This document shows, piece after piece, positions 24,263 to 60,600 of a stretch of DNA of 64,000 nt. The position numbers and the translations under genes were made by a program. Each line of letters starts with the position of its first letter. Positions within the stretch are counted from its first letter, which is position 1. The notes below the pieces were generated by a model that had not been told where the DNA came from, searched no databases, and was given only the letters and a program-made list of their open reading frames with translations. Origin of the DNA: Coffea arabica (Eukaryota; Streptophyta; Magnoliopsida; Gentianales; Rubiaceae); contig NC_092320.1 of assembly GCF_036785885.1 (NCBI RefSeq), forward strand, positions 10,293,557 through 10,357,556, written 5' to 3'.

Positions 24263-24633
24263 CTCCCCCTTGGATGTCCATTACACAAAGAATATGCCTC
24301 GTTAAAACCTTACTAGGGAAAAATCCAGTGGGACCAAAAATTCTAGTGAAGGAAAAAGAGTACACTATTCTTGTGTATTAATTTCTCCCCCTGATGCAAA
24401 CATCATTTGAGATCTTTTAATCGTCGCATTCCAATATTCTTTGCCAATTGCACTGAGATATGGTACTTCAGGACCAAGTATCTCTTCATCTTCCTCTCAC
24501 GATCTAAAAGGATCTTTATTAGGATCTAATGATCTGACGATCATTGGAATGCTTAATATATGTGTCTTATCCATATAAAATCGCTTTAATATCTTCCGGG
24601 TATATGCAGTTTGGTGGACAAAAATTTTACATT

Positions 24634-24984
24634 TCAAATGCTCAATTTGTAAACAAGGCAGAATTTTGTCTTTCCAAAATCTTTGATCTCAAATTCTTTT
24701 CTCAAATATTCAACATTATTTTGAATCTCTTCAGGAGTTCCAATCAAATTTAGATCATCAACATATACAACAATTATCACAAAATTTGATCCATTTTTCT
24801 TAATAAAAACACATGGACATATTGGATCATTGGTATAACCTTCTTTTGTCAGACATTCATTGAGACGGTTATACCACATACGTCCAGATTGTTTGAACCC
24901 ATACAGAGACCTTTGTAATTTAATAGAATAAATATTTTTAAGATTTCCATATAAATATGCAGTAACGACGTCCATTAGACGCAT
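24634..24984 (-). pseudogene. copia reverse transcriptase fragment
   Basis: A 116-codon open frame containing SLYGFKQSGRMWYNRLNE and the reverse transcriptase active-site box YVDDLN. Both are diagnostic for Ty1/copia polyproteins. Sequence upstream in the same orientation (to about 25320) continues the domain (WKDAIQSELDSL and RYKARLV-like stretches) but is interrupted by stops. It is the remains of the pol region of the element at 23933-27668 and not a host gene. Confidence 0.88.
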
Positions 24985-26513: not shown

Positions 26514-26780
26514 TCAAATGTACTTCGGGACATTTATCTTTAGGACCTTTATTTTTGTGTCCTTATCATTATTATCCCACTTCAAGTGGTAACTTTTTCT
26601 CTTGTCATGGTAAAATATATATTTACCAAAATCATAATCATGGCAACAACCATAACTAATAAATTGAAATTTAGTCGCATTCACTTCTGGGAATGGACTA
26701 GAACTAGCATGCAATAAGTACAGAATACTTCTCAAATTTCTCTTAATATTGCTACTACAGGAGCATATTCGAGAAACCAA
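26514..26780 (-). pseudogene. copia gag remnant
   Basis: An 88-codon frame with YHDKRKSYHLKWDN, resembling the basic linker that precedes the zinc knuckle of plant copia gag proteins. The expected CCHC knuckle is not intact downstream. The position, close to the 5' LTR in element orientation, fits gag. Confidence 0.55.
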
Positions 26781-27338
26781 TTGTGGAGAATATCATTTTC
26801 AATTAAGAAATAATTCTAAACATAGTAAAATTGTGTACTTGCAGCCATAAGTAAATTTATCATATCAGATTTTGAAATAATGACCATTTTCTGGTGGCCA
26901 AATATTTTCGTTAAAGAACGACCATCTTCAGGTGATCGAATCTTTTTCTTTAAATATTTCAAAGGACAAGTAGATCATCAAATATAATTGATTTTCTATA
27001 ATAGCATCTCCAAAATTCATTGCATCAGAATATAAGTATTTATAACAAATAATTCTAAAGATAAATAAGTAGAATTAAAGGGAGAAATATTATCTCAAAG
27101 ATATCAAACAGTATATATTTGTGTTTAATGATTGCTCAGCAATAGACACTTGTATTTTTTTGATCATTCAAATGTTAGCCATAAGAAATTGAAATAAATT
27201 TATGTGTCAAAAATTTACCTCAATAAGTAGACAGAAGTTGCCGAAAAAATACGGGCAGAATCTCGTGTTTCACTTTTACTCAAGGTAGAGGCTCCGTTTT
27301 CACATTTTCCTCAAAAATAGAGACTCGTGCTGATAACG

Positions 27339-27668
27339 TGTTATAAAACTAATAAAATGAAATACTACAATAGGAATTGAAGAAGGAGTAGAGAAAGGGA
27401 GAATGATATCCTTATATTTCAACAAGATACAAAAGTCCTCTCAAAGGGTTTCAATGTACCTCTATATATAGGCACTACAAAATTAAAGGTACATAAATCC
27501 TATTAAACATCCACTACTACAATAATATGAAGAAACCTATGAAACGGTTTCTCCACTACATGAATAGATTTATGAATTGTAACTTCTATACATAATGTAA
27601 TCATAAATCATGAATTAATTCTCTTGGGAATACAAAGGGACATCCATACTTTTAATTGTTTCATAACA
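27339..27668 (-). repeat. LTR of the copia element (5' LTR in element orientation)
   Basis: 330 bp, matching 23933-24262 with about seven differences. Just outside, in element orientation, is CGTTATCAGCACGAG, which sits where a primer binding site is expected. I do not assign the tRNA. Confidence 0.9.
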
Positions 27669-31290: not shown

Positions 31291-31624
31291 CAGACTTGTT
31301 GGTTGAAGGGAAAAGAGAGATTTACTGAAGCATACCTACAATTGGGAACAAATGCCTCACTGCTAATTTGCCTAACACTTCAATTGTTTTCTTTTTAACT
31401 TTTTATTAAAAAATGTAAGTAAACAAGATTATTGATTTACAATTGAACATTCAAAGGTTGGTTTTAGAGATTGGGTTAGTCAAATACTACTGCCTTTTTT
31501 TTTTTTTTTTGTTGTTTGGCCTTTTCATATCCTTGTTAACGAATTAAACACTCGGAGTCGAGGTGTTAATTAATTCTCCTACTCAGTCATACAGTAGTGA
31601 CAATGCCGCAGTCCACTTTTTAAT

Positions 31625-31854
31625 CACTTGGGATCCTCGGTGACATTTTTTCTATGGCAACCCAATGCCACCTATAATATTGCACCAAGTGTCCTGTTAT
31701 TATTTACACTTTAATTTTCTAATAATTCAACTTTTTTCTAATAATTCAACTTTGTTTGGTTTAACACAAGTGTAAATAATAACAGGACACTTGGTGCAAT
31801 ATTATAGGTGGCATTGGATTGGCATAGAAAAAATGTCACCGAGGATCCCAAGTG
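31625..31854. mobile_element. Mutator-type MITE, copy 2
   Basis: A 230-bp palindrome from CACTTGGGATCCTCGGTGAC to GAGGATCCCAAGTG. Arms of about 100 bp pair almost perfectly. It is flanked on both sides by the perfect 9-bp direct repeat ctttttaat (31616-31624 and 31855-31863), the target-site size of Mutator elements. It is clearly the same family as 2801-3012. No coding capacity. Confidence 0.9.
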
Positions 31855-32399
31855 CTTTTTAATGCGACATCTAATTTCTCTCAAGATGACAAATTTACTC
31901 TTTTTCAAGTGTATTCAGTATTTGACTATTGAAGGACATAAATAAATTATTATAGTATTTGATAGTAGATATTTGGTGTGGAAATAAAAACAGGTGCTGT
32001 GGATATAGTATCATTTGTCCTCAAGGGCATATGATGATATTTGAAGGACATAAATTCTGTCCAGTATTGTTGTTGTATATTCGTAGAACATAAACGTGTC
32101 GTGGAGAGAAAAATGGAGAAGTAGGATCCATGGCAGCAAAGCAAGCCAATCCAATCGGGGTTGGGAAACTGTTAATGAGGCTATCTGTCTCAGTGAGTGT
32201 CTCTATTTGCAGGGATTGGGACCTATCAGCTGGGGTGGGTCTGAACCTACGAGACCCTTCCCCACCCCTGCTCAGCTCAGAAAGATTACAAAATCATCAG
32301 CTCCAATTCAGCATTCCCTTCCATCTCTACTCATTTTTTTTTTAAATATGATAAAATTTATTCTATATCTTTTTTTACTCTACACTAATACTTTATATT

Positions 32400-33647: not shown

Positions 33648-35318
33648 TCATATGTCACTGCAGCCATAGTGTTGAAGAAGCCTATTGGCTTCTCTAAGAC
33701 CGCTGAAGTATGCACCATGTGTAGTTGAATAGTGGGTTCTATGTGTTGCTTCCCCTGCAAACAAAATTTGAAGCGGAGGAGAGGGAGATTTGGGAGCTGA
33801 TGAATTGCTTATCTTGGGCAATGGCTCAGCCATGGTGTCCATATCATCCCCACTTGATCCAACAGCGACATAACTATATGACCCCAAGAATAGAGGATCA
33901 TTCCCCCATTTGCTCTTCAAAATTTTGGCAAATTTTATGCATCTTAAGTTGGAGTTTTCTGCAGAATTTGCATCCCCATTGCATGGCTGGTTGGAATCTG
34001 ACGCAACATGGTAATGGGTGGATTTTGAAAACAAATTGGAGATTGTTGTTGAAACCCCATTAAGGATATCGTCGTCGTTAAGAGATTCAAGCTCCAGGGC
34101 CTCTTCACCTGCAAACCAGGATAAGAGAACACTGGACTTGCTGTAGATTGGACTGAGAGATGCTGTCCTTCTCATCCACCAAGGGATGTCTGGATGCCTT
34201 GATAATGTGTGGTCTGATTGATGGAAAACCATCTGCAGGTTCGGGAACTTGATGCTGCTCTTGAATTCTTGACCATTTGTTGGACTTAATTGCAAAAACA
34301 GCTTGTTAACAACTCCATACCCAAGTTTTGAAATTGCTTCAGTCTTGAAACCAGGAAGTGGAGGATCGAACATACCGGCATCTTCGCGAATTCCATGTTT
34401 AAGAACTCCCAGTGAAACTGTGAGAATGACATGGTCTGCTGACATGGTTGAACCATCCAGAAAATGTAGCTTCACTGGCATAGTACCATGACCGTTTGGG
34501 ACTGCTGCTATCGGTAAATGGCCGTCAGGCTGCCATTCTATTTTGGTGACCTTGCGGCCTAATTGAACCAAACCAGCGGGCAGTACAGAAGCCAGTGACT
34601 CAATTATGCTCAAGTAGCCTTTAGCAATGGTTATTTCTTCACCTGGAAACAGAATATACTCACTTTCGGCGTTATAATCCAGAGTATGCAAATCTCCAGC
34701 TGAGGTATATGTCCTCTGCGTGTTTTCGTGCATTGCAAAAATGGCCTCTTCGAGTGCTTTTCCGCTCCAATTCCCAAGCATTTTGACCTGATCCCGCTGG
34801 TGCTTCATCGAGCTCCAGTAAGCATCCAAGCCTTTTCGAAGAAAAGAACCAATACTGATGTTTCCAGGGCCGCAAGATTTAGCTGCAAGCTTGAGAGAAC
34901 TGACCGTTTCATCTTCAATCAATTTTCCCTGAGAAAAATCCATCAATTTCTTGAAAAGACTAGAAATTGGCTCAACAAGAGATGGATTCAACTCATATCC
35001 GCCTTCAGCTATTGTAACTGGCTCGTCCGAAAAGCTATCCATGCACTCCCATGGCTGCTCAGACTCGAGCGAATTGATTTCTCGAGCAATTTTGTGAACT
35101 GGGCTACCTTTAATACCGTGGATCCATGTAGCACCTATCTCAATCCTGTCACCACCAAACTCCGAGGTGTTGATCCTCCCACCAATTCTTGTTCCCCCTT
35201 CCACAACACAAAGCTCAAACAAATCTTTGGAGCCAGCTGATTTGTAGAGCTTGTTAGCAGCTGTTAGACCAGCCATTCCGGCTCCAATTATCACAATTCT
35301 TGGCTTCCTGGTAAGCAT
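33648..35318 (-). CDS. PAO5: polyamine oxidase, PAO5 type (intronless)
   Basis: Encodes a 556-residue FAD-dependent amine oxidase. PAO5-type enzymes are cytosolic and oxidise spermine or thermospermine (back-conversion or dehydrogenase activity); this is family knowledge. An N-terminal dinucleotide-binding motif GAGMAG is at residues 12-17, followed by VVEGGTRIGGRINTSEFGGD and IGATWIHGI (substrate/FAD pocket). The C-terminal FAD motif LFAGEATHRTHYSTTHGA lies near residue 520. A single exon without introns matches the known PAO5 gene structure. The frame stays open upstream to 35480, but the extra 54 codons are translated from a (GT)n microsatellite and 5' leader. I chose ATG 35318 because MLTRKPRIVIIGAG aligns with family N-termini. 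No signal peptide is expected. The upstream repeat could vary in length between individuals. Confidence 0.95.
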   Translation of the reverse strand: MLTRKPRIVIIGAGMAGLTAANKLYKSAGSKDLFELCVVEGGTRIGGRINTSEFGGDRIEIGATWIHGIKGSPVHKIAREINSLESEQPWECMDSFSDEPVTIAEGGYELNPSLVEPISSLFKKLMDFSQGKLIEDETVSSLKLAAKSCGPGNISIGSFLRKGLDAYWSSMKHQRDQVKMLGNWSGKALEEAIFAMHENTQRTYTSAGDLHTLDYNAESEYILFPGEEITIAKGYLSIIESLASVLPAGLVQLGRKVTKIEWQPDGHLPIAAVPNGHGTMPVKLHFLDGSTMSADHVILTVSLGVLKHGIREDAGMFDPPLPGFKTEAISKLGYGVVNKLFLQLSPTNGQEFKSSIKFPNLQMVFHQSDHTLSRHPDIPWWMRRTASLSPIYSKSSVLLSWFAGEEALELESLNDDDILNGVSTTISNLFSKSTHYHVASDSNQPCNGDANSAENSNLRCIKFAKILKSKWGNDPLFLGSYSYVAVGSSGDDMDTMAEPLPKISNSSAPKSPSPPLQILFAGEATHRTHYSTTHGAYFSGLREANRLLQHYGCSDI

Positions 35319-35421
35319 TTTTTGAGTATCTCTTGCACTTCCTCTAGCACACAAACTGAAATACAAAACAAAGACAGCAGAGAGTGAAATTGTGAAGTGA
35401 GAAATGTACCCTAAGGAGGGA

Positions 35422-35426
<5 letters not shown>

Positions 35427-35456
<30 letters not shown>
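35427..35456. repeat. (CA)n microsatellite in the PAO5 5' leader
   Basis: About 14-15 CA units on the plus strand, just over 100 bp upstream of the PAO5 start codon. On the coding strand it reads (GT)n and stays in frame with the ORF. Confidence 0.85.
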
Positions 35457-35457
<1 letters not shown>

Positions 35458-35480
35458 GAGAGCAGCATATATTGCCTCAA

Positions 35481-37370
35481 GAAGAGGGCTCTCTTTTCCC
35501 GGCTAGTTTCTTTGTACTTACTTTTACATTGTTTATTTCCATCTAATAAAAACAGGGCTCTACTTTTCTTGAACCCGCTCTAGCCTCTACCTCCAGCTAC
35601 ACGTATCAAATGCCCCAATGAGGCAATGACACTGATAAAACATCTTTTTAGTCTCCCACAATCCCGCTGGATACCTGTAGAACTATCCTCCATCATAATG
35701 TACTTGAGAGTGTCATAAATATTAAGGGCTCACGCATCTTGTATGTGTCTGTATGTAGATGAAATATCGAGCAGTGTGTGTTTAGTTACCCCGGGAGGTA
35801 GAATATATTGATAAGAACACCAATAATAGGCTGATGATGCCTTTTACCAACCTCACATGTGTATCAGGTACCGACGGCCCACCAATGCCAACACTTTTGA
35901 TGGTGCTGATTACTCCATCAGCTTCCATCTCATGAACTCCTTTCGATCTTTTCGACCTGCTAATTAGTCAGATTGCTAAACATTGATTAAGTTTCTTTTC
36001 TTTTCATATTTTACCCCCACCCTGTGATGGACAATTATCGTGTGGATTATGTTATCCCTCTCATTCAACGCTAACCTGTGTGACATAGATTTGGTTTACG
36101 TATGAGGTTTCAGTTCCATGCTAAGACAGCATTGGCCAACACGGATTTTCAACTGCTTAGATTGGTGTCATGTTTTACTTTTAAAGTTATCTTGAAATAG
36201 CAATCTCTTTCAAAGCGCAACATCTGAAATTTGTATCGATCCCTCTAGATTCTAATGTGTTGAGAAGCAGACATCTTGGTGTATTCAGCATGCCCCATAT
36301 GTTTTTTGGACCCATATGGGGCGTTCTGGAAGCAAACATCAATGGGAAATTTATCTCTACTGAATCTTTAGAAGCACAAAAACTAAACAATAATATTGAT
36401 TCCGATGATAATGAGCTGCTTAAGAATCAGTTCAAGATCACACACAGTGCTTTGCTTCCAAATCCATATATATATATATATATATATCGATTCCACGCTC
36501 AAAAACCTTTTTTTTTTTATAGATACTATAATGGTTGAGTAGAACCCTTTACAGCCCTTGGACAAATTTTTTACCAGATGTTCTTAGCGGATTTTGCAAC
36601 AGCTTAGAAAATCCTCTAACCCTACGCATTTTGCAAAAGAGGGTGCTTATGCAGATTAATATGTGTAGCTCAAAAGTCTAATCTTAAAGATGCGACATTT
36701 TTACTGAAGTGAGTCATGGTCAGAGTGCTTTGATGGTTAACGTGCACGTATTATTCAAAAAAAAACTTGGATTAGCAAGTCTTTAAAACGGGGCTAGAGA
36801 CCTAGACCGGTCATTTTTTAATATTAATCATACTGGTATTGGAGTAGTCACTACTCGATCTAGTCACCATCTCCAGCCTATTTTTCTCCCTCAAGAGTAT
36901 ATGATTAACCAGTTTGCATTAAAGAAATCTATATCCTTTTATCAAATCTTCATAAAAGGCTGTGCAGATATGTAAGCATCGTGGGTTGATGATCAAGGAA
37001 GAAATCAATGAAGGGGAAAAAAGCTTGAGCAAGATTAGATGTTTCAAAGGTGATGCTTGAAAAGATTAATTATGTCTATTGCTCTTTTCTGTCGGTCCAC
37101 GGGTTTTTAGCCGCAGCCCCAAAATTATGATTCATCATCATTTTCACTACTTGCAAACGTTATCATTGCTCCTTTTACAAGAGTTTTGATTCCTACGTCG
37201 TACCTGTTACTATTGTAACAAGAAGGGTTTTGATTAAATCCTGTAATGCTGTCAAACAGAATCTCAAGAAGGCAGATTTGCTGCTTAGCAGGACTGGTAT
37301 TTTGCGGGATAACATTTAATGAAGAAAAGCATTCTACTACTTTTAATTAAGCTTTTTTTTTTTTAAAATT

Positions 37371-37413
<43 letters not shown>

Positions 37414-38259
37414 TAGCAATAATCTAAATTTAAGCTTAATTTCAAGTTCTGCATTCAGAATTCAACTGAGTTCCTCAATGCATGATTAAATAGCCTGCAT
37501 GAAGACGATGAGTGTCTTAATTAGCTTCCTCCCGCCAAGAATATATGCTAGAGATGTAAGTATCAAAATCTCGTATGACTGGTATGAGTTCCATATTGCA
37601 AAGAAATTATTGCTGTGTGTGTGTGTGTGTTTGAGTTCTTATTAATCCTGCCAATCAAGCCAAGTTGATATCTGATAAATTTTTATTCCAAGGAAAATGA
37701 TGTATGTATAATTTTATAGAAGAAGCTGTCACTTGAGACAAAACACATTTACATAAAAATCCCAACTCATCAGTACTAATATTGCTGAAGCTGATCATAC
37801 AGCATTAAAAAGTTGATTGCAAGTGACCAAATCAAGACTAGTCTAATTATAGCAGGTACTTGCATTCATTATTATATAGTTCTTGTTTGAATTCAAGAGC
37901 GCATCATTAATTTGGGGTACTAGAGTACGTATAAATAATCACTTAAGGTGATGCATCATTATCAAGGTTTAATATCAATGCCTGACGAAGAAGTCAAAGT
38001 AGTCCTTGAGTTCCAAATTGCACTCCACGTCCTCTCTGGTCTGGTGAATGAGACTCCTCAGCATAATCTCCCCCTTGAGCGCCCAAAAGGATTCGAGTCA
38101 AATAGGTAGAAATATCACAACATCTATGTATGCTTTGACGGTCGTGCTAGGTATTAGCATACCAACGTCATCGCATCAATTTCTTGATCAAACAAGCGGC
38201 CCATCTCTTGCGCATTTATTGATAGCCCTATAAACAAAAAAAAAAAAAAAACTTCTATC
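35481..38259. other. intergenic, simple repeats only
   Basis: About 2.8 kb upstream of PAO5. It contains microsatellites: (TA)n near 36466-36487, (AC)n followed by (AT)n near 37370-37410, and (GT)n near 37614-37631. Short open frames have no family resemblance. No gene supported. Confidence 0.5.
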
Positions 38260-38275
38260 TATTTATATTTATATC

Positions 38276-39411
38276 GAGAAAAATCGTCCAAAATGTCCCT
38301 CACATTTTATAAAATGACCTTTTTCGTCCCTCACTTTTAAAAGTGTAATTTTATGTCTCTTTCATATTCACATCGGTCAAATTTAGTCCCTAACTAGGTT
38401 TCCAATCATTTTTTGGCCGGAATCCATCACGTGTAAGGCACGTGATCATTTTTGAAGGGTAAATTTGTCAAATTATATTTTACATAATCTGATCTATAGT
38501 CCTCCACATTTTTATAAAACAAATTTTTTCGTCCCTCACATTTTATAAAATAATTTTTTCATCCCTCACATTTCACAAAATGAATTTCTTTATCCCTCAC
38601 ATTTCAAAAAATGAATATTTCCATCCCTCATTAATTATGTATGTGAGGGAAATTCTAAAAAAAAAGTATGTGAATACATTTTGTTTAAATACATGTATAT
38701 GTCTATTTGATTTTGCTTAATAATACGAATAGCATAAATATATGTATGTGTCTATTTGATTTCACTTAACAATACGAATACCATATATTATGCGTGATCA
38801 TTTGATTTCATCTGGTATTAGCTAGTAAATAATCTTGCATTCATTGTCAAGTTGGCCAATAAAACTATTTTCGATCAAAATACAATAAGAATATGCAAAT
38901 TAAAGTTCTATTGGTAAATATTAGTCATAATTATACAAGAAGAGAAGATAGCCCACAAGTTGGACCCAATTACATACATGTGTTTATGCTATTATTATTA
39001 AGCAAAATCAAATAGACATATACATGTGTTTAAAAAAATGTATTCACACACATAATTAGTGAGAAATGAAAATTTCATTTTTTGAAATGTGAGGGATGGA
39101 AAAATTCATTTTGTGAAATGCGAGGGATGAAAAAAATTATTTTATAAAATGTGAGCGAAAAAAAATTTATTTTATAAAATGTGGAGGACTATAGATCAGA
39201 TTATGTAAAATATAATTTGACAAATTTACCCTTAAAAAATGATCACGTGCCTTGCACATGATGGATTCCCGCAAAAAAATGATCGGAAACTTGGTTAGGG
39301 ACTAAATTTGTCCGATGTGAATATGTAAGGGATATAAAATTACACTTTTAAAAGTGAGGGACGAAAAAAGTTATTTTACAAAATGTGAGGGACGTTTTGG
39401 ATGATTTTCCC
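38276..39411. mobile_element. foldback Mutator-like element with very long arms
   Basis: A 1136-bp element whose ends read GAGAAAAATCGTCCAAAATG and, complemented, GGGAAAATCATCCAAAACG. Arms of roughly 470 bp are inverted copies (for example CATGTATATGTCTATTTGAT near 38693 and its complement near 39018), leaving a loop of about 200 bp. Repeated GTCCCTCACATTTTATAAAA-type units make each arm internally repetitive. The direct repeat tatttatatttatat flanks both sides (38260-38274 and 39412-39426), consistent with a Mutator target duplication extended by low complexity. No transposase. Confidence 0.85.
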
Positions 39412-39445
39412 TATTTATATTTATATATATGCACCGTGGTACTTC

Positions 39446-41041: not shown

Positions 41042-41679
41042 TGATACGAAATATGGGCCGCTTATGGGCCATGTTTTGGGCTGCAAGAGATTGAATCTTT
41101 TAGTAATAGTTAGTAGTTTATTTTCTAGATTTCTATTTTTTTTGCTAGGAATAAATTCGGTCCAAGACCTCATGTTGAGTTGGATCCGATTTATAGAGTC
41201 TAGGCTCACTATAACTTAAGTTGGTTAATTAGCTTTTATTGGGTTATGTTGGGCCAGCTTAAAGCCTTCATTGGATCAATTATAAGCTGACCATTAGATA
41301 GTGGATTTGAGTAGTGGAATCGGACCAAAGGCCTAGCCTAGCCGAGTTAGGGTTTTGTCTTGTAAGGCTATATATAGCCTAGGTTTTCATTCATTAAAGG
41401 ACAGAATTCAGATTTTATAACATAATTGTGAGTTTATTCACTCTCTCTTGCTTCAAGGGAATTTCCTTTGAATACTTGAGAATTAATCTCAAGTTGTTCA
41501 TCGAACTTATCAATCAAGTAGTCTCCTTGATTGTGGCGTTCTTCTAAATATACTTTGGTTCACTAAACTGGCTAGTCATGGGTTAAGGATTCTCCTTAGT
41601 TCGTGGCTCATGATTCTAGCAGGGTCAAAGTTCCGCAAATCCACTCAACTTGGTGTTCGTCTAGATCCGTCTCACATCA
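41042..41679 (+). repeat. 5' LTR of the non-autonomous element
   Basis: 638 bp, TGAT...ATCA termini. GGCTATATATAGCC near 41366 is a palindromic TATA-like promoter core. It is followed after two bases by the primer binding site. Confidence 0.9.
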
Positions 41680-41999
41680 TCTGGTATCAGAGCTTCGGCT
41701 CTTGATTCAGGTTAATATCCTTTTTCTTTTCTTATTTGTCTATTTTTTTTTTCTATCGAAACCCTAGCCGCCTTTCAATTTTAAAAGAAAAAAAAAATTT
41801 TTGGTTCTTGTTTTTTTTTAATTATTTTATCACTTGAGTCTAACCTACCCCCTTGATTGAACGAGGTTGGAATTTCTTGGTGTGATTACGTTCTTGAAAA
41901 CAGGTTTTTCAAGGGTTTAACTCCCATTAAATTTCTTCCAAGTGAAGTCCTAACCTTGCATCGAGTCGTCAAAAGCAAAAAAAAAAAATAAATAAAAAT

Positions 42000-42107
42000 A
42001 CTGTTCACAGCGGTACTGTTCATCGGAACTGTTCACACTGTAGCAGTACTGTTCATCGCCGCACTGTAGCAGTACTGTTCATCGTACTGTAGCAGTACTA
42101 TTCATCC
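42000..42107. repeat. tandem-like array of CTGTAGCAGTACTGTTCATCG units
   Basis: Three to four degenerate units of about 20 bp (CTGTAGCAGTACTGTTCATC, with shorter GTACTGTTCATCG pieces) in the interior of the LTR element. Similar units are familiar from the untranslated interior of plant LTR retrotransposons. Function unknown. Confidence 0.7.
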
Positions 42108-42293
42108 GAAAATTATTATTTTTTTTTTTCTCTTTTTTTCCCATACCTTGTGGTTGTTTCTTGTTGTTCTTGCTTCTTGTAGTTGGCTTGATAATTTCTT
42201 GAAGTTCTTGGATTACATATAACATTCTCCGAGTTACTCCTTTGTAAACAAGCATTCGATTTGAGGACAAATCGTCTTTCAAGAGGAGGGGAA

Positions 42294-43055
42294 TGATGAG
42301 AACATGAAGATTTGCATGGATTCCTTTCATTTTACAAGTCTGCACATTCTAATGATGGTTGATGGTGCAATCGGGCTCGAGAATCATTGAAGATCCAAAT
42401 TTTCCAAATTTTAATTGGCTTCCAAATCTTGATTGGTATCTTGATTGATATCTTGATTGATTTCCAAATTGAGAGTTAAGTAAGTTGTTTGAATTAGGGA
42501 TAAAGGCTAAGGTCATGTTGACCATAGTTAAGCCAATTTGAATTAGTTAGTTTCCTATTCTAGTTGAATTAGAGTTTTAGGAAAGCAGTTAATTGCTTCC
42601 AAATTTGTTTAGGAAGTTGTGTCAAATTTAGAAGTCAAGTCAAATAAGAAAACTTGTATTGTTTCCAATTTAGATTAGGGTTTTGAGTCTTGCAAGGCTA
42701 TAAATAGCCAACTTTATTTAACTATTGAAAAACACAATTATGAGATGAATAAAAAATTGAGAGTTTTCTCTTTCTTGTTCCTTTGGGAGCGTTCCTTGAT
42801 ACAAAGTGAGTTGTATCTCCTTTGTTCAAGTTTCGGCTTATCAATTCAAGACCATGTTGAATTGTGGCGCCTTCTACACTTGCCTGAGGTTCACTAATTC
42901 GTTTGGTTACGGGTTGAGATAATATCAACAAGTTCGTAGTCACGGGGATTAGAGGGGTCGTAAGGTCTTTCCATCTTTGTATCCATAACCTGGTCAAGAT
43001 AGATCCTTCCGCTGCCTGATCGATTTGGTTCTTCAAGACAGGTTCTTGTTGGGTC
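42294..43055 (+). repeat. second, diverged LTR-like block within the element
   Basis: It starts TGATGAGAACATG right after a polypurine tract and follows the same order of landmarks as the 638-bp LTR: a GGCTATAAATAGCC core, TTGTGGCG, GGTTCACTAA and a GGGTTGAGAT/GGGTTAAGG region. The sequence is otherwise different. It appears to be a related LTR from another subfamily, joined to the right LTR at 43056-43059. Confidence 0.6.
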
Positions 43056-43693
43056 GAGTACGAAATATGGGCCGCTTATGGGCCATGTTTTGGGCTGCAA
43101 GAGATTGAATCTTTTAGTAATAGTTAGTAGTTTATTTTCTAGATTTCTATTTTATTTGCTAGGAATAAATTCGGTCCAAGACCTCATGTTGAGTTGGATC
43201 CGATTTATAGAGTCTAGGCTCACTATAACTTAAGTTGGTTAATTAGCTTTTATTGGGTTATGTTGGGCCAGTTTAAAGCCTTCATTGGATCAATTATAAG
43301 CTGACCATTAGATAGTGGATTTGAGTAGTGGAATCGGACCAAAGGCCTAGCCTAGCCGAGTTAGGGTTTTGTCTTGTAAGGCTATATATAGCCTAGGTTT
43401 TCATTCATTAAAGGACAGAATTCAGATTTTATAACATAATTGTGAGTTTATTCACTCTCTCTTGCTTCAAGGGAATTTCCTTTGAATACTTGAGAATTAA
43501 TCTCAAGTTGTTCATCGAACTTATCAATCAAGTAGTCTCCTTGATTGTGGCGTTCTTCTAAATATACTTTGGTTCACTAAACTGGCTAGTCTTGGGTTAA
43601 GGATTCTCCTTAGTTCGTGGCTCGTGATTCTAGCAGGGTCAAAATTCCGCAAATCCACTCAACTTGGTGTTCGTCTAGATCCGTCTCACATCA
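43056..43693 (+). repeat. 3' LTR of the non-autonomous element
   Basis: Nearly identical to 41042-41679 from TACGAAATATGGG onward (43059). The first three bases are GAG instead of TGA. It ends in ATCA directly before the target duplication ttatc. Confidence 0.88.
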
Positions 43694-44548
43694 TTATCCT
43701 CATCATAATTCTTTAAGGTTGCAGAATCATCATCTGCAACAAAGTTGCCTGCAGTTCTGGGGATTCCTGTCGGTCGTTTTTCACTAACGCCAATTTTCAG
43801 TTTTGGTGGCAGATTAGGCTTCTTTTTCCCTCTCTGCAAGAATTTCTGATGCAAAAATGGAACCAACATATATAGAAGCAACAGAGGTAGAAAAGCAAGA
43901 CAGAAACATTCCCTGTAATACTGGAAGAAATAACTTTTCTGCTTTGGTGCCTGATTGAAATGCTTATGATTCCAACGACCACACAGGACACAAGAAATGC
44001 ACCACCCAAAATGCTATTCAGGCCAATATCATCAGTATTTCATCTCCCATGAAAGTATGCCGGCAAAAACGTCCGATGCGCCATTTCGAAGAGATAGAAG
44101 AGTTACACCAGCAACGGTTGGGGAGAGCTTCAAACATCTTGATAAGCCCATTAGTGAGGAACAAAAGTAACTGTTGGCAGTGTCACCAAGGAGATTGAAA
44201 AGCAATGCTAGCCAAAAAGCAAGCAAACTATAACCAAGTCCTGGGCTAAATGTGCAATAAAACAGCTCCAGATAGGAAACGTAGTCCTGTGGTTGACATC
44301 CCAAGTGGGATTTTACATATAAGCACAGCTCTACTACTTGTAGGTTTGAATCTCATTACAACCATTATCTTCATTCAACAAGATTTGGTAGTTCTTGATA
44401 GAAGGGTTTTTCCCTTGTTGAAGTTGTTTAGGAAATTTGAGTTTGAAGATTTAATATTGATACTGAGGCATAAGGTAAGAAAAAGGAAGATTACGTTGAG
44501 AAAAACAGTGAGACACTCGGCTTTGCGAATTAAGAGGAACAATCCCAT

Positions 44549-49969: not shown

Positions 49970-50920
49970 GTGCCTGTTTGGTAACATAAAAAAGTGCTGA
50001 AATTGAATTCATTCAGACATTCAGATGTTGTGGGTGTTTGATAAATAAAAATTCACCTGCTGAACTTATTAAGTGGTGCTGAATTTGTATGTATTTTTTT
50101 CAGCACAAGAATCGTAGCTGAATGTTTAATTTGATAAGAGTCAAGAGATTTACTTCAACTACTTTATCATTCTACCAAATATATCCCTGTTTGTTAATTA
50201 CATTCAAAATCCTTATTTAATTAAACAACCTAATATTCCCTATTCAAAATCCTTATTTAATTAAACAAAACAACTTGATATTCTCTATTCAAAAATTTTT
50301 TTTAACAATAATATTTTTTTGCAGTAATTTTCATCCACAAACATTTATATTTTGATATTTTTTTTGTGCAAATAAATATTATTTATGTGATGCAGCTTAT
50401 CCACACACACATGACTTTATGACACCATATCGAAATATTAGATATTGGTTGTCTGATTTTCGAAATGGTTCTCGTCCAAGATCAAAAGAAGAACGCTTTA
50501 AACCAAGCACATGCAAGATTGAGAAATGTAATTGAACGTGCTTTTGGAGTATTAAAAGCTCGTTTTCCCATTCTCAAAACGATGAAACCATACCCTTTTT
50601 CCCACACAAAGAAACATTGTCATTGTATGCATTGCTCTTCACAATTATTGTCATTTTCATACCTAACAATTTTAAGTTAATTAAATCATAGGTTCTATTT
50701 CCTTTTTGGATTAAAAGATAGAAGGGCAAAATTGTACAATTTAGCTTATTAAGCATTAAGTTATGAATATTTATCAAACAGTATAAATAGATTCAGCATT
50801 AAGATTCAGACATTCATATATCTCTTTTCAGTACTTAAAATTCAGCAAATTAATTATTTCAGTATTCAGAATTCAGAGTTCAGAATTCAGAATTCAGATT
50901 CAGTGTTATCAAACGGAGCC
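49970..50920 (+). mobile_element. PIF/Harbinger derivative with transposase remnant
   Basis: A 951-bp element with ends GTGCCTGTTTGGTAACA and, complemented, GGCTCCGTTTGATAACAC. It is flanked by the 3-bp duplication TAA (49967-49969 and 50921-50923), the target-site size of PIF/Harbinger. The subterminal right end is dense in ATTCAGAATTCAG repeats. It contains a short transposase fragment at about 50465-50620. Confidence 0.82.
50465..50680 (+). pseudogene. Harbinger (DDE-type) transposase fragment
   Basis: A 71-codon frame with NALNQAHARLRNVIERAFGV followed by LKARFPILKTMKPYPF, the conserved C-terminal block of plant PIF/Harbinger and ALP1-like nucleases. Only this block remains. The downstream sequence is frameshifted, so no active enzyme is made. 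Confidence 0.88.
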
Positions 50921-51914
50921 TAAGTCTTAACTAGCATTTTTTTTTTTTTGTGAAGGAGTCTTAACTAGCATTTGATGCAGGGCACAACAAAGTGAGGATA
51001 ACCATTAATTAATTAATATTTAACGTACCAAGGACCGGACGGGTTGGTATTCCGGAAATCACTCATGCTTTCTACCCAAAAAAAAACCACTCATTCTTAG
51101 CCCTTAGGAACTGCTTGCTTGCTGGTACTATTTCAAATTCTTCAATTTTCCCCGCGTACATGATACAACTGCTACGCATTGTCAGATTAAAGTCCGAGCA
51201 TAATAATTAGAAATGAAAAGGATATGAGAAGGGGTGAGAGGTGTAAAAAAAAAGAAAAGAAAAGAAAAGAGTGTGGTGTCCCCATCCATGCTAACTTGCC
51301 CAAGAAAACTTTGAAGAATTTCTAATTATCTACCAGAAGTTACATGATAAGAAAATGCTATCATCGTTCCAAGTGAAGGAAACAAAGGCTTAGATGGAGG
51401 AGGATTTGATGGTAAAGCAAGAGAAATTATGAGTAAAAAATTTTAGATTCGAAATCTCCTACTTACTTACGGAAAAAGGAAAAAAAAACTTACGTGCAAA
51501 ATTGCAATCATATTTAAAGCTGGGCGCTTCTTTCGTGAAATAGACTTGCATGATAGGCCAGAACCGATTAAAAGGTCAATCACATTATTGTGAATAAGAA
51601 CATCCGAAAAAAAAAGGGACAGAAAGAAGGGAAAGAAGAAGATGCTGCATTGAGGAAAACAAGAAGTGTGATTTGTATTTTTGAGCAGGATAACAACTCT
51701 GACTTGCTAGTTTTGCAGGTTTAGGATGATTTGCTCTGCTTCTGCTTTGAATATCAGTGTAGGATAGATCATAAAGCAGGAAACTCTGAACAGTGCGCCG
51801 ACGGATGAAATTGGAAAGTTTTTACCTAGTAACTGCTCCGGGTCTAGTTTTAAGTTTCTTTTGTTGTGTTGTGTGTGAGAATTTTAAAAATTCAAAAGAA
51901 GGGAAAAAATGAAC
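50921..51914. other. intergenic, no gene seen
   Basis: A purine-rich tract (AAAAGAAAAGAAAAG) lies near 51249-51270. No coding region or defined repeat supported. Confidence 0.5.
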
Positions 51915-51923
51915 TTCAAAAGA

Positions 51924-52312
51924 GGAAAAATATCGGTTTTTCATCCCTAAATTTTGAGTCATGGGCATATTTCGTCCTCAATCTTTTTGACATAACACAT
52001 TTAGTATTTGAACTATCAATTTTTATCCTCCAATGAAAAACTAATTAGTAATTTGAACGAAAATTGGACACCTGATGAATTTGAATCCGTTGACTGAAAA
52101 GCCTTGCATAACTTAAAATTAGCAAAATAGGACAACTAGTTTTACTCTCCCAACTCCAATTTCCATTTATATTGATTAATTTCTTATTTGAGGATGAAAT
52201 TGGTAAAAAATTGACAGTTCAGATACTAAATGTGTTATGCAGGAAGTTTAAGAACAAAATATGTGAATATGTGCATGACCGAAAATTTAAGGACGAAAAC
52301 TGGCATTTTTCC
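51924..52312. mobile_element. small MULE with perfect 9-bp target duplication
   Basis: A 389-bp element with arms of about 130 bp, starting GGAAAAATATCGGTTTTTCA and ending in the complement of GGAAAAATGCCAGTTTTCG. Both arms contain ATAACACATTTAGTAT(T/C)TGAAC. It is flanked by identical ttcaaaaga (51915-51923 and 52313-52321). Non-autonomous. Confidence 0.88.
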
Positions 52313-52321
52313 TTCAAAAGA

Positions 52322-52698
52322 AGACAAAATCCGCTCCACGTTTTCTTTTTCAACTGCTGTTCAATTTTCTAATTTTCTAGAGGAGTATTATTACAGCAGT
52401 TGTCGCGGTACCAGTAGCTAGAATTATAGAACTGTGCTCATGCCACCAAACCAAACCACCTGAGTCCCACAATGTCCAAAAACCACCAATACCGCCGCCG
52501 CCTCGGCCTACCCCGGTTTTAACTCACTCCCATTAGCTTAGATCAAATGTAACCCTGCAGAGCCTTGAGTCTTGACCACCCCCTACTGTTACTATTTACA
52601 GTAGTGAAGCCTCTTTAAATCTTTTTACTGCTTCGTATATTCGTATTATTTTAGCCCCTTTCCCCCGAACGTTTTCCACACAACCAACTCCTTCCAAT
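52322..52698. other. 3' flank of the small acidic-protein gene
   Basis: No gene seen. Probably 3' UTR and downstream DNA of the minus-strand gene ending at 52699. Confidence 0.45.
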
Positions 52699-53332
52699 TT
52701 ACCGTGCCCCACCTAACAAATCCTCCTCACCCAGAAGAAGTTTCACCCACATATTTTCACCGTCACCGTCAGAAGGAGTCGTCTCGCACAAGTCACTGCT
52801 GCCGCTTGGCGATTTTACAAAAATACCCTCCAGATAATCATTTCCCCCCCTCCACCCACCACCCCGGGCTATTACCTCCTCCTCCTCCTCCTCCGCAGCG
52901 GCGTCCGAGCCCCACGCTCCACGGCTATCGGTCTCATCCACGTTCAGCTCCCTAGCCAGCTTCCTCAACGCAACCCGAAAGCTTCCCATGTCGACGCTCG
53001 CCATGACCGTTGAGTCGGAGTCCGAGTACGACGACCCGCAAGACTCCTCGTTGCCGTTGATGGTGACGTAGGCCGACGACGACTGAAAAATCACCGGCGT
53101 CATGTACGGGTCCTCGATGAACCTCACCTTAACGTTAAACTGCTGCGCTGACGACGACGAAGCCTCCAAGGAGGAGGAGTCCAAGAGCTCCGAAAGCTCC
53201 GTGACAGGCCAATGAGGCCATCACGTCGTCTTGATCCTGGTCGCCGTCGCCCTCGGTTCTGAGCTTTTTCCGGACGACGTCGTAGTCACATTCAGTCGTT
53301 TGTCTCTTTCCAGTTCCTTCTTCTTCTTCCAT
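52699..53332 (-). CDS. small acidic plant protein, apparently frameshifted
   Basis: Two overlapping frames fit one protein of about 210 residues. The first part (from ATG 53332) reads MEEEEGTGKRQTTECDYDVV, then VRKKLRTEGDGDQDQDDVMASL. At about 53201-53215 the coding sense moves by one base to VTELSELLDSSSLEAS, FNVKVRFIEDPYMTPVIF, SSSAYVTINGNEESCGSS, a run of six Glu, and a C-terminus ending LLLGEEDLLGGAR. The span is 634 nt, one base more than a multiple of three, which fits a single-base insertion. If the break is real, the gene makes either a 65-residue N-terminal product or a 161-residue product from internal ATG 53184. An assembly error is equally possible. Composition is acidic and serine-rich without a signal peptide or membrane segment. 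I do not recognise a named family. Confidence 0.65.
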
Positions 53333-53515
53333 TTTCTTCGCCAGGAGAGCAAAGGGGTGGTGGTTTTTAACTTTTTTTTGGGGGAGAAAGGGTGGACGCG
53401 AAAAAAAGAGAGATTTTACTGGAGGAATAAGGTAAGGATGAAGAGGTGTCGGAATTTCTCACATTGTGAGTGGAGGCTGTGGGGTAATGAAGACCACTGG
53501 GATTGGGGAGGTGGG

Positions 53516-53530
53516 CTTATATATATATAG
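53516..53530 (-). promoter_or_regulatory. TATA box of the small acidic-protein gene
   Basis: On the minus strand CTATATATATATAAGCCC lies about 185 bp upstream of ATG 53332, a suitable place for a core promoter followed by a 5' leader of about 150 nt. The leader contains GGG/CCC homopolymer-rich DNA. Confidence 0.5.
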
Positions 53531-53562
53531 ATTTCGGGTTTTTTTTTATGTTTTTTGTGTTT

Positions 53563-54193
53563 GGGGGGGGGGGGTTTGGAGCCTGTAGGCTGTGGGAATG
53601 AATGTATAGTAGATTGCAGGAGAATGAAAATGGAGGGAGGGGTGAGTGGTTTTGACTGAGTTGACGGTGCCACGCGAAGAATGAGGGGATTTGGGGTAGA
53701 GAGATAGTGACGCGGGGAGTAGGTGATGACGTGGAGGAACTCTACTAGACTACAACTGCTTATTAGGCCCTTCGTTGAATTGGAAGTTACATACTTTGGT
53801 ACTACTACTAATGTGTGTGTGTGTGTGTGTGTGGCAGTGCAGGATTGGGAGTGTGAGACTGGAGGGTGGAGGAGGTTAGGGAGGAATCCATTATCCATCT
53901 CTCCATGCTAGGACCTGCTAACTAGTCTGGTACTACTAGTAAATGAGGAACTGAGGAAGTAGTACTCCACTACTTTGCTTTGCTGCTAGTACAGACGAAG
54001 ATGGAAGTGAAGGGTGGATGGATGGATTGATGGTCAAAGGTGATGATTAAAATCGGTTTGCTGAAATTGGTAAAATCAGTTACCGTACTGAAATGAAACT
54101 GTGGATGTGGATGACGGATGGTCAAAGGTGATGATTCAAATTGGTTGGCTGGAGTCCGTTCTGGAATTATTTGTCATCAAAAGATTGGTTATA
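53563..54193. other. upstream region with simple repeats
   Basis: Contains a run of about 10 G near 53564-53573 and (GT)n at about 53812-53832. A minus-strand open frame of 160 codons across 53416-53898 is low-complexity (proline, histidine-threonine) and overlaps the promoter, so it is not called. Confidence 0.45.
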
Positions 54194-54202
54194 TATATAT
54201 AT

Positions 54203-55573
54203 GGGTAAAATACATTAAACCCCTTGTGATTTGGGTTATTATCATAAAGCCTCCTCGTTGTTTAAAAACCCCCCATATAAATTCTTTGTGCTTTGGACTT
54301 CTTTGGAAAATGGATGAAAATCATCCAAATTGATTGAAAGTGAATTACACACGCTTGACAAGCGAGTGTGATAACAATACATCAAGGGTAATGTGGTAAT
54401 TTTACATTTTTTTTCTTTTCTTTTTTTCCTTGTTCTTTCTTTGTTTTCTTTCTTCTGAACTATCTGGAGTAGAAAAACATAAGAAACAACTGAAGCAAAA
54501 TCAACACCAACCTTTGTTAATCTTACTTTTCTTTTTTTCTTCTTTCCTTCCTCCTTCTTTTTCTTCCTTTTTTTTTTTCATTTTTTCTCCTTTCCCTTCT
54601 GGTGCAACTACAAGTAGAAACCTAAAGCTCCATTACCTTTGATAAACCCTCTCAAATCAGACTTGAATTTCTCTCACCAACTCAAAATCTCCCTTAAACA
54701 TACAATTCATTCGATTTTTTAAACCAGAGACACCACCATCTCATAGCCTTCAGGTGATCCCTTTCCCCTTCGTTCTCATCCACCGCCACCATCAATTCGC
54801 TTCGCCGCTGTTGCCATCGGCACTACTGCTTAGATTTCCTGGTATAGGTCACATTGCCAAGTCCGTCAATGACTACAAGGCCAGTCTAGATCTCATTTCG
54901 ATAGATAATCTGCCTAAGCCACTCGCCATTGCAGACGTCTCTCCAACTCCGATGCATGGCTTGAAGCTCCATATTGCCCATCAAGGTGTTCCCGGAGCTT
55001 TCAGCGAAGCCACTGTCGGCAAAGTTTATATGAACATGCGAAGTGGGTTATCGGGGGTAATTCTTAATGTGTAGACATTTTTGATCTAGTGATTTTTGTG
55101 AAGAAATTTTGTGGGTTTTAGTTGAATTTTGATTTCTCATTGCCTAAATCTAATACAAGTTGACTTTAATTTGAGCGGTTTCTATTTAATTTAGTATTGA
55201 GATTCTTGGCGTTGATATTAATTTGATTTGATCCATTTCAGTATGAAGGAAGAAAAGAAAAGGAAAAGGAAGAAAAATGCAAAAAAAAAAAGAGGTATGG
55301 TATAAATGATTGATAGTTGAACCTAGAGATGATGACAATGGAAAGGACATCAGTGTTTGCAGCATGAAAGGCAGGTTGAACCTAAATTAACTATTGGTAC
55401 ATTTTGAAAACGGGGTTAGCATTGGAATTTAACGTCTTTCCGTCAATTTGGATGATTTACATCCATTTTCCAAAAAAGTCCAAAGCACAAGGAGTTTATA
55501 TGAGGGTTTTTAAATAATGAGGAGGTTTTATGACAATAATCCAAACCACAAGGGGGTTTAATGTATTTTACCC
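54203..55573. mobile_element. Pack-MULE carrying an arogenate dehydratase gene fragment
   Basis: A 1371-bp element bounded by 138-bp terminal inverted repeats (54203-54340 and 55435-55573) that start GGGTAAAATACATTAAACCC. The repeats match at most positions. The flanking 9-bp tatatatat on both sides fits a Mutator target duplication, though it is low-complexity. The interior (about 54350-55430) is not transposase; it contains a recognisable piece of a host plastid enzyme gene (54830-55065). The size, inverted repeats and captured exon are the defining features of Pack-MULEs. Confidence 0.88.
54754..55074 (+). pseudogene. ADT: captured arogenate/prephenate dehydratase (ADT) fragment
   Basis: The frame of 106 codons reads, from about residue 40, DYKASLDLISIDNLPKPLAI then ADVSPTPMHGLKLHIAHQGV and PGAFSEATVGKVYMN. 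This matches the start of the catalytic domain of plant arogenate dehydratases (LPKPL, SP-PMHG, AYQGVPGA-SEAA-GKAYPN), plastid enzymes of phenylalanine synthesis. Only the last part of the transit-linker region and the first 35 or so residues of the domain are present. After KVYMN the match ends and the frame soon stops. Substitutions such as YQGVPGAY to HQGVPGAF indicate relaxed constraint. It cannot encode a working enzyme, but it could be transcribed as a chimeric RNA. Confidence 0.88.
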
Positions 55574-57670
55574 TATATATATATATATACACACACACAC
55601 ATATATATAAGCTGAGATGTGAGTCGACCAGGGGCCTTTTCCGGCCGGGGAAGGTAAAGCAAAACGTTCTTTTAGCAGTCTGGCTTTTTATCCGGAGAAA
55701 CTCCACCTACCAACTGCCAAGCGGTAGTAAATTCTTTTTTTAAAAATGGTAGTAGTACTACCTTCTAGCAGTGTACAATTGAATTCGGGCGTCAGTCTCC
55801 CCCTTTTGTCCTTTTTATCCACGCCACCTCTGAGCTCTCTAGCCAGAGTCTGGTACTACGTACTACCACTACTACTACTCCGACCAAAGAATGCTGCTGC
55901 CAAGTCGGACTCAAGAGGTGTTTCTTGCAATGCAATAATGTAGGGTGTAGATGATGGGTCTTCTCCTGCAGTTCTCTAGTTTATGTAATCTTATCTTTGT
56001 GAGTTTAGTGGGTCTTTCGTATTACCTCTAAAATATAGTTGAGTTCTTATCTCTGCTTAAAATAGGATACCATAAAGCGCAACGTTTACCATTTGTATTT
56101 CACCTCAAAAAAAATAAAATAAATTTAAGCGTCCTTAATTTCATCATAGAATATTTTATTGGTTAAATGCACGACGTCGTGCTCGTAAAGAAAAAGAAAA
56201 TTGGACCGTGTTGCTTGATTTTGAAATGGCATCGTGAAGTTAAACTGTCCAATTTCGGAGTAACACCAAAGCGTATTGAACCGTATACAAATTTGTGACC
56301 AGATTTTTCTGTCCCTTTTCAGTTTCCGGCGATGCTTTTCACTCCAAGGTGCTCATTTGGAGCTGACCATATGAGAGGGGGGGGGGGGGGTAAAACGTAG
56401 CAATTCAATAAAGAAATTGAAGAGGGAGGAAAAGTAAATATTTTTTATCCTGCTACTGCTCGGACTGTGTAATTATATGCTTCAATATCTTCAGGGAAAC
56501 CTTAATATATCTTGCACGACGTAAAGGTCAAACTACGTGTGTGTATGCGATCTAAAAACTTCAGAAAGTAGAATCAATGAATATAATTTTGGCCGAAATT
56601 GCTAGATGTGCTCTTTTTTTCCGGATACAGAAACAAACACACACACTGAATTAGACTAAGCACGACAGTTAACGGATAAACCGACCGATAAACAAGCCAT
56701 CTAAAGGGGACTCATAGAGCAACTCGATCCAGCCAATTGATTGCTAGATGTGCTCTCGATACATAGATTTTCTAGTAATTTTTTATCGAAAGGCGATTGT
56801 ATAAAGTCGGTATAGGCTGTTCCTTTTTGGGCCATATATCCCCACCCAAACGAAACAAAGATTAAAAGTGTGAAAAATTGACCTAATTGTGAAGCACGTA
56901 AATATCATCATTTAAGGAAACTCATTATTACGGTATAAATAAAGCACATATTCAACAAGACTAAAGAGACTGGCTACCTTACCTAGCTGGTGGGTTGCTC
57001 GCCGTTGTCGAACTTGAGTTGGCACGGTGTGCAACTTTGAACAGCAGTTGAACTCCACCTGCGCAGGAATCTAGTTAATCCAAATTTCCGAAGATCAGCT
57101 CCTTGAACTACCACTCCTACACAATGCCACCAAACCAAACCACAGCACCTACCACCACATCTTCCATCCAAATTTTATCTCATCAGCCGGCCGAATTCCA
57201 TGCTCCAACAATCCTCAGAACCTTCTCTCAGCCTATTGGTTGTTCTTCAGTAAATTATCTTCATTGTTATTGTTGAATCCAATATTCATTATCCGCTTCA
57301 CCTGAAAATTTCCCAACCACTTCTATGGAAACAATTGAGCATTAAAATATAAATTTCCTTGTCAAACACCGTAGGCCTCAGCTGCTCGCACCCGTAATTC
57401 ACCAGCATTCAATAATTAGTATCAACGGCAGAGAATGTTGGACCCATGATTGGTAAAATACCGAATCACATATGCAGATCCTACAGAATTGTAAACTGGC
57501 AGAATCAAGTCGGAACACAAATTCCACAGTTCTAAATGCTAGAATATACTACCGGCTATTCCAGTTCCTCTACCAAGGAAAACAAAAAGAAAATACCCCC
57601 GGAGTACAATGCTAGATACAGAAACAGTTTTTAACAAGAAGTTCAGCAGCTCAATGAACCATTAACTCTC
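55574..57670. other. intergenic between the Pack-MULE and the MSI4-like gene
   Basis: Starts with TA/CA microsatellite DNA (55574-55610) and includes a run of about 13 G near 56378-56390. Short frames, such as 56983-57171 on the minus strand, have no family match. The last few hundred bases are probably the 3' UTR of the minus-strand WD40 gene. Confidence 0.45.
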
Positions 57671-60600
57671 TCAAGCCTTGGAAGTGCACTCGATTACATG
57701 ATCTTTGAAATGTTGGAGCTCAGCTAAAACCTCATCCTCAGGCCTGTATAATAAGTCAGTCATGCGCCATATCTGCAAATTACAACCACCAGATGCAAAA
57801 TCAAGGGAAAACCGTCAAGAGGGATCAAAGCCAGTAGAATGCTACATCTGCCAAGAATACCACCACCCCCATAAAAGAAGAAAACATCTCATACCTGTAA
57901 CGTGCCCCCACCACCGCTACTTTCACCATCATCAGAAACACTGACAACCGTCCATGGATCAGAGGCATTCCAGTGAAAGTCGACAACTTTGTCCCTGGAG
58001 AACATATAGAGAACATTTTCACTATCAAAAGATCTTAACATTGTCTATAGGCCAACAAGCATCCAGATAAGAGAAATATGTTTGCCATTAGTACTGAAAT
58101 TACGACTGAGCCAGTAAGGATGCAAATCAAATGCTTTTTAATCGTTTAGACTAGATAGAAACGAAAACCAATAGTAAGTTTTTAATTGTGTTTTTCTAAG
58201 AATAATTCACCATGGTCCATTGTTGATGGCACACAAATATTTTGATTTGACACAGCCAGAGGCAGATGGCAAGAACAGAATATCTCAAGTTAAGCAGCCA
58301 GAAGTAAAGATGATTTCTGCAAGTCCAAAATATAACTTAAATATCATTTAGATATCACAATACTTTTAACAAACAAATGAGTCAACCCGTGCAGGTGAAC
58401 CACACATGGATTGAATAGACTAGGTCAGCCACCAATAATTTACTGCATAGTGCTAACTAACCTGTGCCCAGCATGTTGGAAAAATAACCCAGGAGGACTA
58501 CTTGGAGACCTTGTCCCGCTTTCTATCTTTTTGCCAACCTACAGGACAAGCAAGGAAAGAAATTAGTCTCATAGAAATCAGATGGTATATATGAGATGTA
58601 CATATAGTCAGTTCGCAGGCTGATGTGAGAAGCTGATTACAATCTTACACATTCGCATTCAGATATATTGACATATGACAGCAATTGAAAATTTTCCTAT
58701 CATAGAATATGATTTGTGAGAAATTTCTTAACCATAGCCCTCTGTAGAAGAGTTGACAGCAAGCCCATAAATAACGAGAGCGCAAGAGAGGGGGGGGGGG
58801 TCGCAGAGAGAGAGAGGCTTCAACACCTTTTCATAATCCCAGATGTTCAATAAACCATCCTCTGCAGAGCTCCCAAAGACAGTGGACTTGTCAGGAGACC
58901 ACTGGAATAGAAAATAATTGCTTGGTTATCAGAAGTATTCAATAGATACATATAAATCGAAAGATTCAAGAACAAAATGATCACCTGAACACAAAGAACA
59001 GCAGCTGTATGACCTTCAAATTTATGCACTAGTGACTCGACTCCATCAGTTGTTAGTTTCCGGCGATCAAACAAGCGAACAGAGTGATCTGCAGACCTGA
59101 AATAACAGCATGACTCAACAAAGCTTCTAAACCTTTTTTGCAAATCAAGTTGCAGAGATCTGAACAAATTATGTTTGGAGTTTCACGCATACAGAATTCC
59201 TCACAAATGTTTTTGGCATTTGCATTCCAATATCCATTTGTACCTTTTACCTCAATCAAATGACAACACACCCATATCATCCTGGTAAAGCCCTCCTACC
59301 AGACCTCCATATGACACTTAACATTTTTGTCTTTAACAAATTTCCCTTTGGGGTACTCAAGCTTTCATGTACTCTATCCTATTTACTTGCCTCCACTTAT
59401 CCTTTGATCTCGACTTCTAGCCATGTACATGACATACAACAATCTCAGAGACCATCCGCAGTCAAAATCATTAGATTTAAACGTGAACTGGTTATTCTGC
59501 TTGTACAAGAAGCCCTCACAACAGCAGAAGTCATTTGAAGATTGACGTTGTCTAATGAATCAGATAATTCCAAGTATACTCTTCCTTTCCTTCCCATAGT
59601 ACTCTAACGCTACTATCCTTGCGAATTTAACTGAAGGCTAAAAGAGATTTTTGCATTATAGATCCAAAAAAAGGTGGAAACCTGGGTCACATCACTTGAG
59701 TAATTTGGTGACACTAATATGGGAACAATTAATAGATAAAAGACTCTTCTGCAGACAAATCTCAAACATCTATCTAATTCTGCCTATCAACATTAGATTA
59801 CAGACTATGATTAGGGAAGGAAGTTAATTTCATTCAAGAAAGAAAAGGGGCAAGAAGTTTCAAATCTACAATTTAACAATTGATAATATTCTGTGTGGAC
59901 CTTTTCAAGTACCATAGGCAATACTTAGTTTGGGAAAACCACGACAAATACAGATAGAGAAACACAATTAAGTTGCATCTTCGAGAACCAACAATCCTGG
60001 ATCAATCAGGTTGAAAGAGTTGAAAGCAGAAAGGAAGCAGAATCTGCTACACCAACAAGCTGATACAACTGAACTTCTTTTAGATTTAACAATTCATAAA
60101 AAACTAGTAATAGCTTGAAGCACTACAGTGTGGAAACGAGGAAACTTGTAGAAACAAACCACATATCCACAAGCAATATGAATATGGACTGTGAGAAGCT
60201 ACAGTTGGATAGCATCAGCAGCCATATCTTTAACAACATGATGACACTCAAAACAGTTTTAACGTCAATAGAAAGAAATCCCTGACGCTTTACAGTTACA
60301 AGCATACCCAGTGAGAATCAGGTTTTGATCATGAGGATTCCAATCCACACAGTGGAGATCAGCATTATGTGCCTTTTCAACCTATTCGAGCAGTGAAAAA
60401 GGAACTCCAGATTAATCCAAACAATAAGTTTGTACAACACTAATAAGGAACTTATATTGAAAACTAAGAAACAAGAGTGATAAAATAATCCAACAATAAA
60501 TTTGTATAGCACTACTGAGATATTTATGCTGAAAATGAGGATAACATGCGCCAAAAATTGCTATAACGAAACATTAGCCAGTCAAGGCCAACACCTAACA

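Follow-up and report, generated by a model that had tools for sequence, protein, structure and literature searches.

Does the 1371-bp unit at positions 54203-55573 of the 64-kb window analyzed here (the whole stretch of Coffea arabica DNA, 64,000 nucleotides) represent a transposon that has taken up part of a host gene, and if so, to which kind of transposon does it belong? We favor, with a probability of roughly 0.8, the reading that it is a non-autonomous Mutator-like element (Pack-MULE) that captured a genomic piece of an arogenate dehydratase (ADT) gene and then inserted into a TA microsatellite. The original prediction had likewise proposed gene capture by a Mutator-like element, on three grounds: long inverted repeats, a 9-bp flanking repeat and an ADT-like peptide. 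The three turn out to carry rather different weight.

The unit is bounded at both ends by terminal inverted repeats (TIRs) of 138 bp. The left one (54203-54340, plus strand, beginning GGGTAAAATACATTAAACCCC) was delimited by BLAST and alignment, and the right one (55436-55573, minus strand) shares with it 124 of 137 aligned bases. The complete alignment of the two arms spans 139 columns at 89.2% identity (124 identities, 13 mismatches and two single-base gaps), with complete agreement over the outermost 21 bases, and BLAST within the window gives the pair an E-value of about 7e-47. The 138-bp inverted repeats that had been predicted are therefore real. When the flanks are included, the inverted match grows to 153 columns, since a TA repeat, as found in the flanks, is its own reverse complement. 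Eleven of the mismatches are transitions and two are transversions, an excess that would fit aged, methylated DNA. The arms may already have differed when the element inserted, and their identity is therefore not read here as an age. The left subterminal region is rich in T and the right one in A, and we tried these inner inverted stretches as an extension of the TIRs. The candidate was rejected: with a low-complexity filter nothing better than E = 1.9 was obtained, and the unfiltered pairing covers 27-34 bases at 71-85% (E about 1e-4). No further copy of the TIR was found in the 64-kb window, where BLAST matches other than the arms themselves, up to E = 10, extend over at most 24 bases. The literal TIR strings did not occur in the literature searched; for shorter strings from the element ends, no title among the matches listed concerns plant transposons.

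Repeats of other kinds are present elsewhere in the window. Just left of the element lies a 35-bp direct repeat (54029-54063 and 54117-54151, 91% alike, 88 bp apart). At 23933-27668, two 330-bp direct repeats (97.9% alike), which start with TG, end with CA and have near-identical 5-bp flanks (GTTAC and ATTAC), resemble an LTR retrotransposon of about 3.7 kb. A second pair of direct repeats, at 41045-43694, is 636 bp long and 99.2% identical, measures 2.65 kb end to end and shows no TG...CA at the BLAST limits; it is possibly a recent LTR-type element or a local duplication. Inverted repeats at 38257-39430, which align over 494 columns at 84.8% and are separated by about 220 bp, indicate a long-inverted-repeat or foldback element, and near-palindromic units at 2801-3012 and 31622-31857, mutually 77% alike, perhaps form a foldback MITE family. 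By eye, the stretch at 10083-10437, which is absent from the inverted pairs at E 1e-6, has the ends CTCCCTCC... and ...GGGAGGG, which we take to be those of Stowaway-type MITEs. As for genes, a long single frame on the minus strand (33648-35579) encodes a flavin amine oxidase domain in full (Pfam PF01593, E = 1.8e-62); presumably it is related to plant polyamine oxidases, which it resembles.

Which superfamily do the ends of the 1371-bp element indicate? By the thresholds given in an excerpt of PMC3310237, the TIRs of a Pack-MULE measure about 100 bp or more and are at least 80% identical; here we find 138 bp and 89.2%. The same excerpt gives 100-500 bp as the typical length of MULE TIRs, and because the arms lie inside this range we count their length and 89% identity in favor of a MULE. 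The flanks contribute less than had been supposed. The element sits between a (TA)n tract at 54190-54202 on the left and another at 55574-55589 on the right; these tracts would house any target-site duplication, and their repeated letters mask its length. The letters of the proposed 9-bp flanking repeat, TATATATAT, are truly present on both sides within the (TA)n microsatellite, but they are weak evidence: among the lengths tried, 1-20 bp, left and right coincide at 1, 3, 5, 7, 9, 11 and 13 and differ at all the rest. Since the target site is itself (TA)n, the 9-bp repeat tells nothing beyond this parity, and we rejected it as proof of a Mutator insertion; the assignment to Mutator consequently depends mainly on TIR length. 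The flanks allow duplications of 9 and 11 bp, equally of 3 and 5 bp, and do not allow 10 bp. If the ends are placed correctly, this parity speaks against the 8-bp duplication of hAT and the 2-bp TA of mariner elements; slippage in the TA tract in steps of two bases would preserve it. A more general caution follows, namely that a "9-bp target duplication" within a TA microsatellite should not be taken as evidence of Mutator insertion.

A competing proposal is that the unit is a gene-fragment-carrying TIR element of the PIF/Harbinger, hAT, CACTA or Tc1/mariner superfamilies, that is, a Pack-TYPE element other than a MULE. We consider this unlikely. Pack-TYPE elements have been found across all main plant TIR superfamilies, and in rice only 52.4% of the PIF elements found have the TTA/TAA duplication, while CACTA duplications are 5 nt long (PMC8903248, in the part available). 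Duplications of 3 or 5 bp suit the flanks here as well as those of 9 or 11 bp, so parity does not by itself exclude CACTA and PIF. Against these groups stands TIR length, which outside the MULEs is usually below 50 bp according to the excerpt of PMC3310237, making 138 bp long for any of them. A 3-bp duplication would here read TAT, not TTA or TAA; the even-length duplications of hAT (8 bp) and mariner (TA) misfit the flanks; and the ends of this element lack the letters CACTA, with which CACTA elements begin.

The Pack-MULE reading further implies the lack of a transposase. Every one of the 20 ORFs that overlap the element and have 35 codons or more, the longest having 135, was scanned against Pfam at E-values up to 1, and none yielded a transposase. 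Four weak matches among them (E 0.015 to 0.35) are to unrelated families and fall below the cut-offs. No Rfam family reached its gathering score in positions 50000-60000.

What does the element carry instead? A stop-to-stop frame runs on the plus strand from 54667 to 55074, with 135 stop-free codons (54667-55071) followed by TAG at 55072-55074; its first ATG, at 54952, would open a 40-residue peptide. Both peptides quoted in the original prediction sit in this frame. The frame also includes IAHQGVPGAFSEATVGK, which is encoded on the plus strand at 54973-55023 and has 12 of its 17 residues in common with a petunia ADT3 peptide, VAYQGVPGAYSEAAAGK, reported in the accessible part of PMC6318282; QGVPGAFSEA belongs to this match. 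Scanned with BLOSUM62 against six frames of the whole window (127,900 positions), the ADT3 peptide scores 68 of a possible 86 at 54973-55023 and 26 at the runner-up site. The best score among 1000 shuffled versions of the peptide was 39, and among 500 first-order Markov copies of the element it was 26. The predicted host-gene fragment is thus borne out by a match above the shuffle and next-site controls. The captured piece extends approximately from 54845 to 55045 on the plus strand (48.8% GC), with outer limits set by eye around the measured core at 54973-55023. Upstream of the core lies LPKPL...PMHG, which we take to be typical of ADT linkers. The ADT identification, which is probable, accordingly draws on one 17-residue published peptide and the linker-like sequence before it.

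Profile searches add little to this identification. Pfam gave no match to an ADT or prephenate dehydratase family for the ORFs and pieces of the element, its one result being the unrelated family DsbC_N at E = 0.25 with a 47-amino acid piece. Of the three overlapping pieces tried, only the shortest (29 amino acids) matched the NCBIfam prephenate dehydratase profile PRK11899, weakly (E = 0.15, profile positions 6-29 of 283); the 47- and 69-amino acid pieces did not. No PDB sequence was matched up to E = 10. Prokaryotic genomes do encode prephenate dehydratases, and in the prokaryote contigs scanned the 69-residue piece gave 145 pattern matches, none of them confirmed as a relative at an E-value of 1e-3 or below. 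The host-gene fragment characteristic of a Pack-MULE is therefore represented by the controlled 12/17 match, with profile support weak or absent.

Three further ADT peptides from the available portion of PMC6318282 bear on how much of the gene is present. Their best scores in the window are 27 of 75, 23 of 36 and 23 of 54, which were equalled or exceeded by 220, 418 and 320 of 500 shuffles, respectively, in an ungapped scan in which one peptide, of only seven residues, says little. Because they do no better than shuffles, the ADT-like piece is to be regarded as a fragment. The comparison supports the view that the element holds the start of the ADT catalytic domain and, to judge from these three peptides, lacks the remainder. 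A complete gene would have catalytic and regulatory domains; here the frame stops at the TAG at 55072 and the three peptides are unmatched. A longer intact ADT locus, which the original prediction had set against capture, was sought with these peptides across the window; they matched nothing beyond shuffles, and an intact locus was rejected on this basis. The state of the cargo leans toward decay: it carries 5 replacements in 17 residues relative to the sole ADT peptide compared, and no ATG precedes the PMHG methionine (54952) in frame. These replacements, together with the transition excess between the TIRs, would fit an old, methylated, silent copy.

The remaining interior is of mixed character. 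Next to the left TIR, a T-rich subterminal stretch (54341-54610, plus strand, 47% T) is perhaps the element's own sequence, and between it and the ADT piece lies a stretch of 43.6% GC (54611-54844, plus strand) which, judging by composition, may be captured. Downstream of the ADT piece we predict an intron-like GT...AG stretch of 185 bp (55057-55241, plus strand) with a plant-intron-like composition (27% GC, 47% T). It is one of several donor/acceptor pairs, since the scan over 54601-55400, a simple one using plant consensus letters, returned four donor-like and five acceptor-like sites and the donor at 55057 scores 4 of 7, exactly the threshold. The stretch may have arrived with the ADT piece or may derive from a second gene. 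Splicing over 55057-55241, if it occurs, would continue the frame into a purine-rich, lysine-coding tail. This tail is not evidence of coding, because purine-rich DNA has few stops.

Could the element nevertheless be active at the RNA level? One proposal, compatible with the Pack-MULE reading rather than exclusive of it, is that the element is transcribed and that the ADT piece or a TIR hairpin gives rise to small or antisense RNAs lowering expression of the parent ADT gene. We judge this very unlikely. The TIRs do pair in a predicted RNA fold of the whole element (-424.5 kcal/mol, a value with no shuffle control), and the available part of PMC13317346 describes sequence-capturing maize elements as reservoirs of siRNA. 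On the other side, the captured piece is short, with those same five residues unlike petunia ADT3. Long TIRs enable any element to fold in this way, so that a hairpin of this kind would be expected regardless. Regulation of ADT by the element is a guess. Equally doubtful is a short chimeric transcription unit, reading the ADT piece from the methionine at 54952 and spliced over 55057-55241 to the tail rich in lysine codons, or else an RNA from it with a tuning effect on the parent ADT gene. According to the accessible text of PMC6318282, one petunia ADT3 isoform follows from an internal transcription start and begins at a second in-frame methionine; the captured piece may carry the corresponding start region. 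Least credible of all is the view that no transposon captured anything and that inverted repeats came to surround an ADT gene in decay or an ordinary pseudogene: the ADT-like stretch does adjoin an intron-like one, but it is enclosed by paired ends with 138 bp of homology and 21 identical outermost bases, and none of the three further ADT peptides was found in the window.

Returning to the Pack-MULE reading, the TIRs, the truncated ADT-like piece and the position within (TA)n are directly observed, while superfamily, capture, mobility and silence are what we infer, with the following history. An element with 138-bp TIRs would at some earlier time have acquired a genomic ADT piece, comprising the end of the linker and the first strand of the catalytic domain, together with other sequence, possibly including an intron. 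Gene capture is usually attributed to an accident of repair or template switching, which may have operated here. The element would then have entered the TA microsatellite, moved by a transposase that recognized the TIRs and that an autonomous relative presumably provided in trans. The cargo is truncated and has drifted, and the element is therefore most likely silent today, a fossil with no influence on the synthesis of phenylalanine.

How does the element compare with known systems? With the Pack-MULEs of rice, tomato and other plants it shares long TIRs, an interior in which no transposase was found and a host-gene fragment; it differs in that the length of its target-site duplication is masked by (TA)n. 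With Pack-TYPE elements outside the MULEs, such as Pack-CACTA (in the part of PMC8903248 available), it shares the general form of a TIR element with coding DNA, whereas its TIRs are much longer, its flank parity misfits hAT and mariner and its ends are not CACTA. With petunia ADT3, as excerpted in PMC6318282, and other plant ADTs it has in common the 12 of 17 residues of VAYQGVPGAYSEAAAGK, whereas what is visible here is confined to the beginning of the catalytic domain. The original reading of Pack-MULE capture therefore survives as a long-TIR element without recognizable transposase that carries an ADT domain start, its 9-bp support having shrunk to parity. No paper in the literature searched mentions both arogenate dehydratase and Pack-MULE, and in a wider search none of the papers listed mentions arogenate dehydratase. 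Over 3000 gene-capturing long-TIR elements are known in rice alone, according to the available parts of PMC13317346 and PMC8903248, and the locus is best read as a new instance of a common, well-known kind of event. Expression of the element or silencing of its parent, if true, would raise its significance, as ADT feeds the supply of phenylalanine; on the best reading, the element is one more gene capture by a long-TIR plant transposon.
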